NCBI RefSeq assembly: GCF_008086205.1
Contig: NZ_VSKK01000003.1
Location: 186,001-250,000, forward strand
Direction of reading: 5' to 3'
Source of the DNA: Bizionia myxarmorum
GTDB lineage: Bacteria > Bacteroidota > Bacteroidia > Flavobacteriales > Flavobacteriaceae
DNA: 64,000 bases
Positions within the stretch are counted from its first letter, which is position 1, and every line of letters starts with the position of its first letter. Shown here piece by piece: positions 53,748-57,060 of this stretch. The position numbers and the translations under genes were made by a program. The notes below the pieces were generated by a model. The model did no database searches, had not been told where the DNA came from, and saw nothing but the letters and a program-made list of their open reading frames with translations.

Positions 53748-54838
53748 GCAAACATAAAAGCAAAACCCAATACAACTACGCCTGTTAGTATAACAACGGG
53801 AATAAAAAGTGCAGTTATTAAACTAGCCTTTTAAAAACTTTTAATGGCGCTTTGTTTATAAAAGCGTTTCATGGCTAGAACGAGATATACAAAAGTGGAT
53901 AAAATAAGTATCAAGTCTAACCAATTTGGAATATCTATAATATAGTTAAAACCTAGTAGCAAGCTAAATACAGTAAATAGAAAGGCGAAATAGTAAAAGC
54001 TAAAAACCAAATGATGCGTATAGCTTCCACTCATTCTGTAAAATAGCCTTATTAGTAAAGCGAAAATTGGTAACACAAAAAACATAGCAATGGGAATGGT
54101 ATCAAAAAATGTTTTAAATAAACCACCCGCTCTTTTTAGTTTATAGAATTTTAATGCTTGTTTATACATTCTGGTTTTAACGGTTCCAGCATCATCTGAA
54201 CGCCCCATTTCTCTATAAATAATTTCTTCTGGCGCATCTATTGCTATTAAAGAATCTAATTTTTTTTCAATGGGACCTAAAGAAAATTCAACGGCTCTAA
54301 AATCTTTGGCTGAAACAATGGAATCTATTTGCTTATCTGTCATTCCGGTGTAAAGCTGATTATCTTTTAATACTTTACGCACATCCATTCTATCCGTAGA
54401 ATCTATTTTTAATTTTTTAAGGTTCTTTTCAGTATTGATGGCATCGTGAAAAGAATCTCCAGTGGACGTTTCTGTTATAACCTTTCTATCAAAACCTTTG
54501 GCCAAATTAGCGTCTAATTTTTCGGTCCAAATTGAAACTTAAAAGGAATTTAAAGAGAAAAATATAATGGCTATAAACAAATACATTTGAGCTGGATGCA
54601 AAAACAATAAGCGTTTTCCTACAATAAATTGTTCGGCCAAATATCCAGGTTTTAATAAAAGTGGTAAAAAACTCTTAAAAAAACGCGCATCAAAGGAAAA
54701 GTAATTACTTATAGTATTGTAAAATAAAACTTTCAGCGTAAGCGCGTCATTTCGTTTTTGGCCACAATGCGGGCAAAATGCGAAAGCTTCGTTGTAGGTT
54801 GTTTCACAATTTTTACATAAATGCTTACTATTTGCCAT
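53744..54838 (-). pseudogene. DUF3667 zinc-ribbon membrane protein gene with two in-frame TAA codons
   Basis: From ATG at 54838 a 364-codon frame runs to a TAA at 53746-53744, with only two interruptions: TAA at codon 100 (54541-54539) and TAA at codon 336 (53833-53831). All three parts fit one DUF3667 protein. It has an N-terminal zinc ribbon (CKNC...CPHCGQKR, Cys8, 11, 22, 25), a GKR-type segment and membrane helix up to codon 99, a polar middle, helices at about 245-330 (KRFYKQSAIKSF), and a last hydrophobic helix (LITALFIPVVILTGVVVLGF) after the second TAA. No frameshift is seen, so the pieces look like nonsense-interrupted parts of one gene. It is convergent with uvrA, overlapping by four bases. 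Confidence 0.75.
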
Positions 54839-54922
54839 GAGATCTGATTGATTTTATAAATCTATAAAAAAGAATTCGTTTTTATAAAATTTGAAGATTC
54901 TGACAATCAAATACTTACCAAT

Positions 54923-54939
54923 TTGGCACGACAATTGTT
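54923..54939 (+). promoter_or_regulatory. Sigma-54 (-24/-12) promoter of the first paralogue
   Basis: TTGGCACG ACAA TTGTT (54923-54939) matches the RpoN consensus YTGGCACGrnnnTTGCw at 15 of 16 scored positions, with T for C in the -12 GC. It lies 64 bases before the ATG at 55004. Confidence 0.7.
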
Positions 54940-55003
54940 TATCTACTAAAACATAGCGATAGCCGAAAAGCTAATGAGTAGGCATAATCTAAATCCTAAT
55001 AAG

Positions 55004-55717
55004 ATGAAAAAACAAGTACTTTTATTTACAGCTTTGTTAATAGGATTAACAACTGTAAAAGCAAACGAAATCGCGTCTGTATCTACAGCTGGTGATTTAA
55101 AGATTTTTAATGCAGGCTATGCACAACCTATTATTTTTATGGAATGTGGCATTGAGTTTATGGTCTTCCCAGACGGTAGTTTTGATTTTAATACTAATAC
55201 CAGACAGCAGACCAGTAATTTTGATGATAATTATTATCACAGAAATTCAAACCAAACCCGTCGTGGATCTGTTAATAGCACTTTTGGAGCGCCAAGAACT
55301 AGAAGCAACGTTCGTTATTCAGCACCAAGAGATCAAGGTGTTTTGTTAACACATGATGCAAATGGTCAAGTTAGGCGCATTGGAAATGTGTTTATTAATT
55401 ATGACCGTAATGGTAAAATTAAACGCGCAGGTTCGGTATACATGAGCTATAATAGTCGAAATGGCTTATTAACGCAAGTTGGAGGTTTACATATTAATTA
55501 CAACCATTGGGGTGAAATTATTAGTCAATTTGGTATGGTAAATCCTTTTAATAATGTGTGTCAATTTCATAATATTCCTAACTGTACATTAAATCATGGT
55601 TCTGGAAATCATCAAAATAATTATAATAACAACAGCGGTAATTCAGATGATAATTATTATTATAAATCTGAAAAATCAAATCTTGAAGATATACAAAAAT
55701 CCAAAAAAGATAATTAA
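55004..55717 (+). CDS. Secreted protein of a sigma-54-controlled paralogue pair, unknown
   Basis: The 237-residue protein has a signal peptide (KKQVLLFTALLIGLTTVKA) from the ATG at 55004; a longer frame from 54974 adds ten residues and is less likely. The mature part has FMECGIEFMVFPDGSFDF, also found in the downstream paralogue, then an Asn/Arg-rich linker. Short repeats of about 18 residues follow (INYDRNGKIKRAGSV, MSYNSRNGLLTQVGGL, INYNHWGEIISQFG), probably beta strands. The tail is Asn-rich. I recognise no family. It is followed by a long hairpin terminator. Confidence 0.65.
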   Translation: MKKQVLLFTALLIGLTTVKANEIASVSTAGDLKIFNAGYAQPIIFMECGIEFMVFPDGSFDFNTNTRQQTSNFDDNYYHRNSNQTRRGSVNSTFGAPRTRSNVRYSAPRDQGVLLTHDANGQVRRIGNVFINYDRNGKIKRAGSVYMSYNSRNGLLTQVGGLHINYNHWGEIISQFGMVNPFNNVCQFHNIPNCTLNHGSGNHQNNYNNNSGNSDDNYYYKSEKSNLEDIQKSKKDN

Positions 55718-55750
55718 TACAGTTTAAGTTTTTAGTTGGTTAATTAGTGT

Positions 55751-55788
55751 TAAACCCCAGATAATAAAATCCTATTATCTGGGGTTTA
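55751..55788 (+). terminator. Strong terminator between the two paralogues
   Basis: A perfect 16-bp stem, TAAACCCCAGATAATA (55751-55766) with TATTATCTGGGGTTTA (55773-55788), has a 6-base loop and a T-rich 3' side. It makes the paralogues separate transcription units. Confidence 0.9.
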
Positions 55789-55844
55789 TTTTTCAAACAT
55801 ATTCAATAGCTTGATTATAAAGTAATTGTAATGATTAATAGTTT

Positions 55845-55861
55845 TTGGCACGTTGTTTGTT
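55845..55861 (+). promoter_or_regulatory. Sigma-54 (-24/-12) promoter of the second paralogue
   Basis: TTGGCACG TTGT TTGTT (55845-55861) matches the RpoN consensus at the -24 element, with 4-base spacing to TTGTT. It has the same TTGT variant -12 as the first site. The ATG at 55897 follows after 35 bases. Confidence 0.7.
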
Positions 55862-55896
55862 TTACTATAAATGAGTTTAATTAATACCTAGTAATC

Positions 55897-56991
55897 ATGA
55901 AAAAATTCGCATATATTTTATCCGTTCTATTTATATCTAGTACAGCCATTATGGCCAGCACTGATGAAATAGCTTCTACTCCAACCTACTCTAATAGTTA
56001 TAGTGGTTATGGAAATAACTTTATTTTTGTTGAAGGTGGTATTGAGTTTTCCATTTTCCCTGATGGTCAATTTGATTTTCATATGGGGAATTATACCAAC
56101 AATATGAATGTTTCGGTAAATTCACCTAATGTGAGTATCAGTTTTAATACGGGCTATGATTATAATGCCTTTGTTCAATATGATGAATATGGTGCCATTG
56201 TTCAAGTAGAGCATGTGCCGGTTTTTTATGATTATTATGGTCGAGTCGTTCGTGTTGGTGATGTGAATATTCGTTATAATAATTATGGTTACTTATCAAA
56301 TGTAGGTGGATTGTATGTTCATTATAACAGATACAATCATTTTAGCCATTGTACAGGTTTTATAAACCCATTTAACCGAGTATATGTTTACAGACCTTGG
56401 CATACTTATTATGTGGTTCCTGCTTACAACTACCGCGTAGTTTACACAACGCCGTACAGACAACATTATACGCCGGTTAGATATACATATAGTACACCAT
56501 ATACTCATAATTATAGACGCACAACTGCTGTGGCAACTAGACGTGGAAATCAAATTACGAGACGTCAAGAATTAGCGACACCTAATAGACGTAATAATTC
56601 TGTAGCGCAGCAAACACCGCGTTCAAGAACTAATGCAGCAGAACAAGCGCCTAGAGTTAGAAGTAAATCGGAAGTAAAAACTAGAAGTTCGGAGCCAAGA
56701 CGTTCAAATGCATCCCAAGCGCCGCGTTCTCATTCTGGCAGTGAGGTGAAATCTCAACCTAGAACACGAAATAATAATACCGTGCAAACTAGGGGTTCAA
56801 GTAGACAAATATCAGCCAGAAATTCGGCAGAGAGAAATACGAGATCACATGCTATTAAACAGCCAACAACACGAGTTAATCCAAGAAATGAGGTTCAAAG
56901 AAAACCGAATGTCTCTAATTCTCGTACATATGCTAAAGAAAGAAATACTTCTAATACATCTCGTCAAACGGATTCTAGAAGAATTCAATAA
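55897..56991 (+). CDS. Secreted Arg-rich protein, paralogue of the 55.0 kb gene
   Basis: The 364-residue protein has a signal peptide (KKFAYILSVLFISSTAIMA). Its N-terminal half matches the previous protein: FVEGGIEFSIFPDGQFDF, then repeats FYDYYGRVVRVGDVNI and YNNYGYLSNVGGLYVHYN. A Tyr/Pro-rich linker follows (YYVVPAYNYRVVYTTPYR). The last 150 residues are low-complexity and strongly basic (many Arg, Ser, Asn and Gln, such as RSRTNAAEQAPRVRSKSE). The basic tail suggests binding to an acidic polymer such as LPS, eDNA or nucleic acid, which is speculation. Confidence 0.65.
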   Translation: MKKFAYILSVLFISSTAIMASTDEIASTPTYSNSYSGYGNNFIFVEGGIEFSIFPDGQFDFHMGNYTNNMNVSVNSPNVSISFNTGYDYNAFVQYDEYGAIVQVEHVPVFYDYYGRVVRVGDVNIRYNNYGYLSNVGGLYVHYNRYNHFSHCTGFINPFNRVYVYRPWHTYYVVPAYNYRVVYTTPYRQHYTPVRYTYSTPYTHNYRRTTAVATRRGNQITRRQELATPNRRNNSVAQQTPRSRTNAAEQAPRVRSKSEVKTRSSEPRRSNASQAPRSHSGSEVKSQPRTRNNNTVQTRGSSRQISARNSAERNTRSHAIKQPTTRVNPRNEVQRKPNVSNSRTYAKERNTSNTSRQTDSRRIQ

Positions 56992-57060
56992 AAACACATT
57001 GGTTGGTTAGTTAGAAAGTCCTGCGATATGTATGCCTCAAAGCTACATCGTGGGATTTTC

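Follow-up and report, generated by a model that had tools for sequence, protein, structure and literature searches.

Two neighbouring paralogous genes in the window (the whole 64 kb stretch of DNA that was analysed) appear to be transcribed separately, each from its own -24/-12 promoter, by RNA polymerase containing sigma-54. The reading that we favour, and consider highly probable, is that these promoters have a form characteristic of the lineage, that they depend on an activator of the receiver-less AAA+/Fis type (L005 below), and that a pseudoknot at the start of the gene 1 message acts in addition on translation. Sigma-54 control of both genes is, judged from sequence comparison, very likely, and the evidence as a whole suggests that the gene pair is controlled at both transcription and translation. 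A conserved set of predicted sigma-54 targets is now available for the Flavobacteriaceae.

Putative sigma-54 promoters precede two paralogous genes

Gene 1 (55004–55717, plus strand) encodes the small paralogue, a predicted exported protein of 237 aa, and gene 2 (55897–56991, plus strand) encodes the large paralogue of 364 aa. Both were taken from the list of open reading frames (ORFs), and BLASTP aligns their products with an E of 3e-23 and identity at 58 of 187 positions. The signal peptides of both proteins were assigned by eye only. The gene 2 product combines a signal-like N-terminus with a repeat domain and a long tail rich in Arg, Ser, Thr and Asn, and its structure model, which is of low confidence (mean pLDDT 36.9), has strands up to residue 154. 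Neither protein matched a Pfam family, and a score of 17.2 bits to the thiovarsolin model of NCBIfam (cut-off 35 bits) was taken as chance. Named relatives of gene 2 are found in Bizionia argentinensis and in two Olleya records. The upstream bases of the Bizionia locus (L019) are identical to those in genome G004, which belongs to the same genus as the window, so that the genus was placed at or close to Bizionia, in the Flavobacteriaceae. The listed ORF of gene 1 begins at an ATG at 54974, and the start at 55004 is supported by the spacing between the DUF805b RNA described below and the ATG in relatives. In the alignment of five genus genomes, the in-frame ATG at 54974, 30 nt 5' of the likely start, lies inside this RNA.

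A strong hairpin with a T tail separates the two genes (55751–55788, plus strand; -22.9 kcal/mol, z -6.2) and is called as an intrinsic terminator by terminator scan and fold. Because of this terminator, the genes are expected to give separate transcripts. On the opposite strand, a match to mir-5897 (33.8 bits; gathering threshold 90) corresponds to the terminator hairpin and was discarded. Another hairpin, 3' of gene 2 (57014–57060, plus strand; -20.3 kcal/mol, z -3.2), is a possible terminator that the terminator scan did not recover.

A previous sequence-only reading had placed a site of the form TTGGCACG-N4-TTGTT just upstream of each of two related ORFs with a terminator between them, and this arrangement holds in every part, the paralogy by BLASTP and the terminator by its hairpin and T tail. 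The cores of gene 1 (TTGGCACGACAATTGTT, 54923–54939, plus strand) and gene 2 (TTGGCACGTTGTTTGTT, 55845–55861, plus strand) lie exactly where described and are the only two exact matches in the 64 kb window. With up to two mismatches allowed, the window contains 6 matches against 1.88 (sd 1.27) expected, and the looser pattern TGGC-N7-TTGNW shows no clear enrichment there (9 against 4.94 expected, with 7 of 100 shuffles reaching 9). The site alone is therefore insufficient for the case, which is carried by conservation. Both window sites have GG at -25/-24 within TGGCAY, a fixed spacing from the -24 half to the -12 G that is the same in the relatives displayed, and T as the -12 base, the C of the Pseudomonadota GC doublet being absent. 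By the usual sigma-54 spacing, transcription on the plus strand would start at 54950 for gene 1, 12 nt past the -12 base at 54938, and at 55872 for gene 2, in agreement with the earlier estimates of about 54950 and 55873; the gene 2 leader would then be 25 nt long, and no structure is predicted in it.

Genus alignments (five genomes for gene 1, six for gene 2) revealed no upstream activator (enhancer) block common to both promoters. Three to four of five genus genomes retain a block between gene 1 and its divergent neighbour; this block may belong to that neighbour instead. The neighbour itself consists of two ORFs on the minus strand (54539–54838 and 53831–54505, of 99 and 224 aa, the second starting from TTG), possibly representing one membrane protein whose gene is interrupted.

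The sites are conserved across the Flavobacteriaceae

All 25 gene-2-type upstream regions, our own included, carry at least 10 of the 11 core bases and 15 carry all 11, while only 0.06% of 5000 first-order resamplings of such regions reach 10. One locus (L019) was omitted from this set since its upstream bases are identical to those of another (L023), and one of uncertain type (L044 in genome G007, 37% identity) was retained. Among 92 loci that carry the DUF805b RNA, at least 9 of the 11 core bases are found at 32 of the 33 that encode a paralogue; the remaining paralogue gene (L193, the same as L051) has the RNA but lacks the site. The scoring pattern behind both of these counts presupposes the -24/-12 spacing. 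Within the genus, conservation covers the core and the leader and does not extend upstream of the gene 2 -24 element.

The gene 2 family was found in 23 of 25 genomes of Flavobacteriaceae, including our own, and in none of 15 genomes from other families of the order; rpoN is present in all 40 genomes of the order that were searched. The best explanation of these data is that both genes belong to an old sigma-54 regulon of the Flavobacteriaceae for exported and envelope proteins.

The roles of RpoN in Bacteroidota had been called little known in the sequence-only reading, which is partly outdated: in Flavobacterium psychrophilum, a member of the same family, the mapped sigma-54 (SM4) regulon comprises chaperones, the sprB operon, lipoproteins and exported proteins of unassigned function, with lon and clpB among its genes (PMC9723704). 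Its -24/-12 elements and its exported proteins, lipoproteins and chaperones have their likeness here. In Flavobacteriia more widely, genes for chaperones and proteases are predicted to be enriched among those under sigma-54 (PMC12316311). No Bacteroidota sigma-54 paper naming TTGGCACG was found by title in the literature searched, the coverage of which leaves out most subscription journals.

The -12 base points to a lineage form of the promoter

The sigma-54 consensus of Pseudomonadota is TGGCACG-N4-TTGCW, and most characterised sigma-54 promoters carry C at -12. The sites described here share with those of Pseudomonadota the -24 half, the spacing to the -12 G and the T run before -24; they differ from them at -12. 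In 60 genomes of the family, 49 of which had a match, TTGGCACG-N4-TTG-N-W occurs 107 times against 20 times in reversed form, so that about a fifth of the 107 sites may be chance. The -12 base in these sites with a perfect -24 half is A in 46, T in 38, G in 18 and C in 5, which means that C is replaced in 102 of 107. The T at -12, which had been regarded as rare, is thus common in the family, and it is C that is rare.

Neither is this base constant at the loci under study. It is T, G, A, A and G before gene 1 in five genus genomes, T in 20, A in 3 and G in 2 of the 25 gene-2-type regions, and A in 22, G in 9 and T in 3 of the 34 DUF805b loci with a site. The argument that a shared T makes the match non-random consequently fails, the gene 1 base being variable within the genus and a base other than C being the rule, and the textbook reading, which took a rare T common to both sites as evidence, was rejected for the same reasons. 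The match is non-random because of its conservation across genera.

A plain scan of our own genome is noisy: TGGCAYR-N4-TTGNW matches 23 times against 13 for the reversed form, and 12 of the 23 lie inside long open frames. The stricter TTGGCACG-N4-TTG matches 5 times against 1. C at -12 is found in 2 of the 23 sites, one of which precedes a glutamate-dehydrogenase-like gene. The sites upstream of lon (TGGCATATTAATTGAA) and, by eye, of clpB (TGGTTAGATTTTTGAA) have no C at -12.

Judging by these counts, the missing -12 C is a lineage trait, and we file the two promoters as a lineage variant rather than as textbook members of the class. The form that best explains the data has a strict -24 half (TTGGCACG) and a -12 half in which TTG precedes A, T or G. 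In other bacteria the helix-turn-helix (HTH) of RpoN reads the -12 element, according to the part of the study compared (PMC3162934); this HTH is conserved in our RpoN alignment, and the sequence gives no ready explanation for the lost C. This corrects the -12 consensus for genome scans in the family, where a strict search for TTGCW would overlook 102 of the 107 sites.

RpoN and its candidate activators

The genome (3.36 Mb), in which the window occupies C10:186001–250000, contains one rpoN, the presence of which had been proposed as a check on the promoter assignment. Its product (486 residues) aligns over residues 2–485 to solved sigma-54 chains with an E of 1.5e-71 and retains the HTH stretch STvSRv and ARRTVAKYRE. 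The activator domain gives 12 matches, four of them strong (225–244 bits) and the others scoring at most 37.6 bits. Activators are few both here and in F. psychrophilum, for which three are given in the part of the text compared (PMC9723704).

The four strong candidates differ in architecture. L002 is a GAF/PAS hybrid activator with GSFTGA. L003 is a response regulator with an AAA+ domain, GAFTSA and no HTH detected by Pfam; GAFTSA also replaces GAFTGA in L241, L244 and L245. FlgR-like activators have no DNA-binding domain, combining an AAA+ domain that carries GAFTGA with the absence of an HTH; L003, the second core activator, was considered as a possible member of this class: Pfam gives AAA+ and no HTH in it, and GAFTSA takes the place of GAFTGA. 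L004 is an NtrC-type response regulator with GAFTGA that adjoins a kinase and lies 5' of the glutamate-dehydrogenase-like gene, and L005 is a receiver-less AAA+/Fis protein with GSFTGA that lies 5' of an LptE-like gene (the neighbours of both were named by eye). The pairing of a sigma-54-dependent regulator with LptE at the L005 locus likewise appears in F. psychrophilum, in Table 2B of the paper (PMC9723704).

With the L005 product as query, the best hit has 58–100% identity in each of the 40 genomes, two of these hits being over part of the length. In one genome, G014, for which a completeness of 100% is listed, L005 has two matches at E up to 1e-20, one of the L005 type (GAFTGA, Fis-like end) and one of the L003 type (GAFTSA, no HTH seen); this genome keeps the large paralogue with TTGGCATGCTGTTTGAT upstream. 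Since it has the promoter and two activator types, these appear to suffice there, the L005 type being the more probable activator. From this phyletic pattern, obtained with one genome and one query, the receiver-less Fis-type protein is the best candidate for the activator of the gene pair. That the two genes would be switched on by a specific signal, as had also been proposed, follows from general sigma-54 biology.

A probable pseudoknot RNA lies at the predicted 5' end of the gene 1 transcript

The only Rfam match above threshold in the window is DUF805b (RF02914, clan CL00115) at 54953–54984 on the plus strand, which scores 37.2 bits against a gathering threshold of 35.6. It starts at +4 of the predicted sigma-54 transcript of gene 1 and is read here, from covariation, as an H-type pseudoknot, a pairing absent from the nested structure line of the Rfam model. 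The gene 1 message thus probably begins with a small pseudoknot RNA, placing a widespread RNA, with its putative pseudoknot, at the extreme 5' end of a predicted transcript. The nested fold of the gene 1 leader is not favoured by ViennaRNA (z 0.35); nested folding models no pseudoknots. A published description of DUF805b or of its pseudoknot was not found in the literature searched, from which most subscription journals are absent, and in the part compared, the F. psychrophilum SM4 text mentions no RNA element at the starts (PMC9723704), whereas DUF805b stands at gene 1 here.

A search of 149 genomes of the family gave a DUF805b match at E up to 0.001 in 91 and one above the cut-off in 69. Our own genome has two above the cut-off, and the second, on contig C16, has no sigma-54 site within 300 bases upstream. 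The 92 loci examined comprise these two and 90 among the matches listed, mostly the best-scoring first, with a few chosen as known neighbours of gene-1 relatives (for example in G001), so the shares given here are not those of a random sample. At 33 of them the RNA precedes a member of the paralogue family, defined by an E up to 0.001 to the profile of the window's two proteins, while among the other 59 only 2 have at least 9 of the 11 core bases (L095 and L102, two of the 34 loci with a site, at which a paralogue was not called). The pairing of sigma-54 site and DUF805b is thus nearly confined to one gene family, and common ancestry may account for it instead of a functional link. By eye, many of the remaining genes at DUF805b loci resemble small exported proteins or peptides. 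At four loci without sigma-54 sites (L078, L082, L096 and L104), a short palindrome (e.g. GTTGTACAAC) was seen by eye just 5' of the RNA.

The position of the RNA is narrowly set on both sides. The core starts 27–31 nt before the RNA in 33 of the 34 loci with a site (47 nt in the other), which puts the first RNA base at about +1 to +5 in those 33. From the 3' end of the RNA to the ATG of gene 1 there are 19 nt, and this distance is 19–21 nt in 28 of the 33 paralogue loci. Irrespective of the gene that follows, it is 14–27 nt to the first ORF in 86 of the 90 loci with a called ATG, a count that skips ATGs less than 8 nt past the RNA and so hides an in-frame ATG inside it. Such a near-constant distance to the start codon suggests that the RNA acts on the start of translation.

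The pseudoknot is indicated by covariation between the NCC of the loop, which precedes GAAAA, and the GGN of the 3' end, with the combinations GCC/GGC (44), ACC/GGU (14), UCC/GGA (7), CCC/GGG (4), ACU/AGU (3) and others. Full pairing is present in 76 of 82 distinct sequences and incomplete in 6. As the parse allowed only C or U at two positions of the loop and only G or A at two of the 3' end, the variable pair is the sole free test; it takes all four Watson-Crick types, and the 76 paired sequences compare with an average of 44.5, and at most 56, in 2000 shuffles, which ignore relatedness.

A proposed model for two layers of control

We propose that an activator of the L005 type, sensing an envelope or surface signal, would open RNA polymerase-sigma-54 at both promoters, and that genes 1 and 2 would be transcribed separately. 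The gene 1 transcript would start almost directly with the DUF805b pseudoknot, which, about 20 nt before the ATG and hence at the upstream edge of the initiating ribosome, might tune translation. The gene 2 transcript, with its short leader free of predicted structure, would lack this layer. Extended to the family, the proposal becomes tentative, and we rate it somewhat below an even chance: in Flavobacteriaceae sigma-54 would use a -12 element without C, and an exported-protein family would have the sigma-54 start built into the first bases of the pseudoknot at a near-constant distance from the start codon, forming a two-layer switch: the transcript would be made only when the activator permits it, and its translation, in a group without Shine-Dalgarno sequences, would be set by the 5'-terminal pseudoknot sitting against the upstream side of the ribosome.

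Three other explanations were weighed against the favoured reading. DUF805b might act in DNA or as a spacer rather than as RNA structure, for which its nearly fixed place after the promoter and the weak nested fold predicted for the gene 1 leader could be cited; we regard this as improbable, given that its loop and 3' end covary in pairs outside the Rfam nested line, with 76 of 82 sequences fully paired, and that 57 of the 59 loci examined outside the gene family have the RNA and no sigma-54 site. Slightly less probable, and held unlikely, is transcription by a housekeeping sigma factor from a TAnnTTTG box, with another regulator binding the TTGGCACG sites. The start sites of both genes are predicted positions, and boxes with one mismatch occur at 54886, 55725, 55787 and 55839, but an exact TAnnTTTG, from which a start had been named as counting against sigma-54, is absent from both upstream regions and leaders in the window. 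Among the 25 gene-2-type upstream regions, 4 have a box near the site (shuffles give 10%), and in three of these it overlaps the -24 element itself; the -24/-12 spacing is constant in the counted loci, though the scoring pattern assumes it. The presence of rpoN, the conservation of the sites and the absence of the box together give the earlier assignment of sigma-54 promoters its support in sequence.

Still less credible is the view that sigma-54 binds both sites but initiates transcription at only one, the other having been left over from the gene duplication. Many sigma-54 binding sites in E. coli are intragenic and need not be gene promoters, as reported in the part of that study compared (PMC4591121); here, however, different genera retain each kind of site upstream of its own gene, and a terminator separates gene 1 from gene 2.

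Further candidate targets and a pre-terminator element

Outside the window, a lipoprotein-like gene (G000:C5:475630; L109, L239) has TTGGCACG-N4-TTGAA upstream, as it also does in four other genera (L131, L132, L133 and L157). Its product has no NCBIfam match, and the gene is a possible third conserved member of the regulon.

Directly before the terminator-like hairpins of genes 1 and 2 stand two related elements, TTAGTTGGTTAATTAG after gene 1 (55732–55747, plus strand), with 2 mismatches to TTGGTTGGTTAGTTAG after gene 2 (56999–57014, plus strand). They are the only TTGGTTGGTTAGTTAG-like sites in the window, 2 against 0.05 expected, and both follow the sigma-54 genes. Elsewhere in the genome, the element was also observed after clpB and in a candidate small RNA (loci L235, L230 and L231). 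With up to two mismatches, TTGGTTGGTTAGTTAG has 8 matches in the genome (7 places, as two overlap) against 3 for the reversed pattern. Five of these places, two of them judged by eye, stand before hairpins: gene 1, gene 2, the candidate small RNA, clpB and L236; the other two places are L237 and L238. The first three have sigma-54 sites, clpB has a weaker one (by eye), and L236 has none directly before its last gene. The reading of TTGGTTGGTTAGTTAG as a mark of sigma-54 transcripts was not adopted.

The candidate small RNA, which would be driven by sigma-54, lies at G000:C8:83438 (L122, L219), where the roughly 115 nt that come after TTGGCACGAATATTGAA contain no called ORF and end in a hairpin and a T run. 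It is 87–92% identical in five other genus genomes and has matches in 13 of 40 genomes overall, most of those outside the genus being short; the same layout was recognised by eye at three further loci (L141, L142 and L144).
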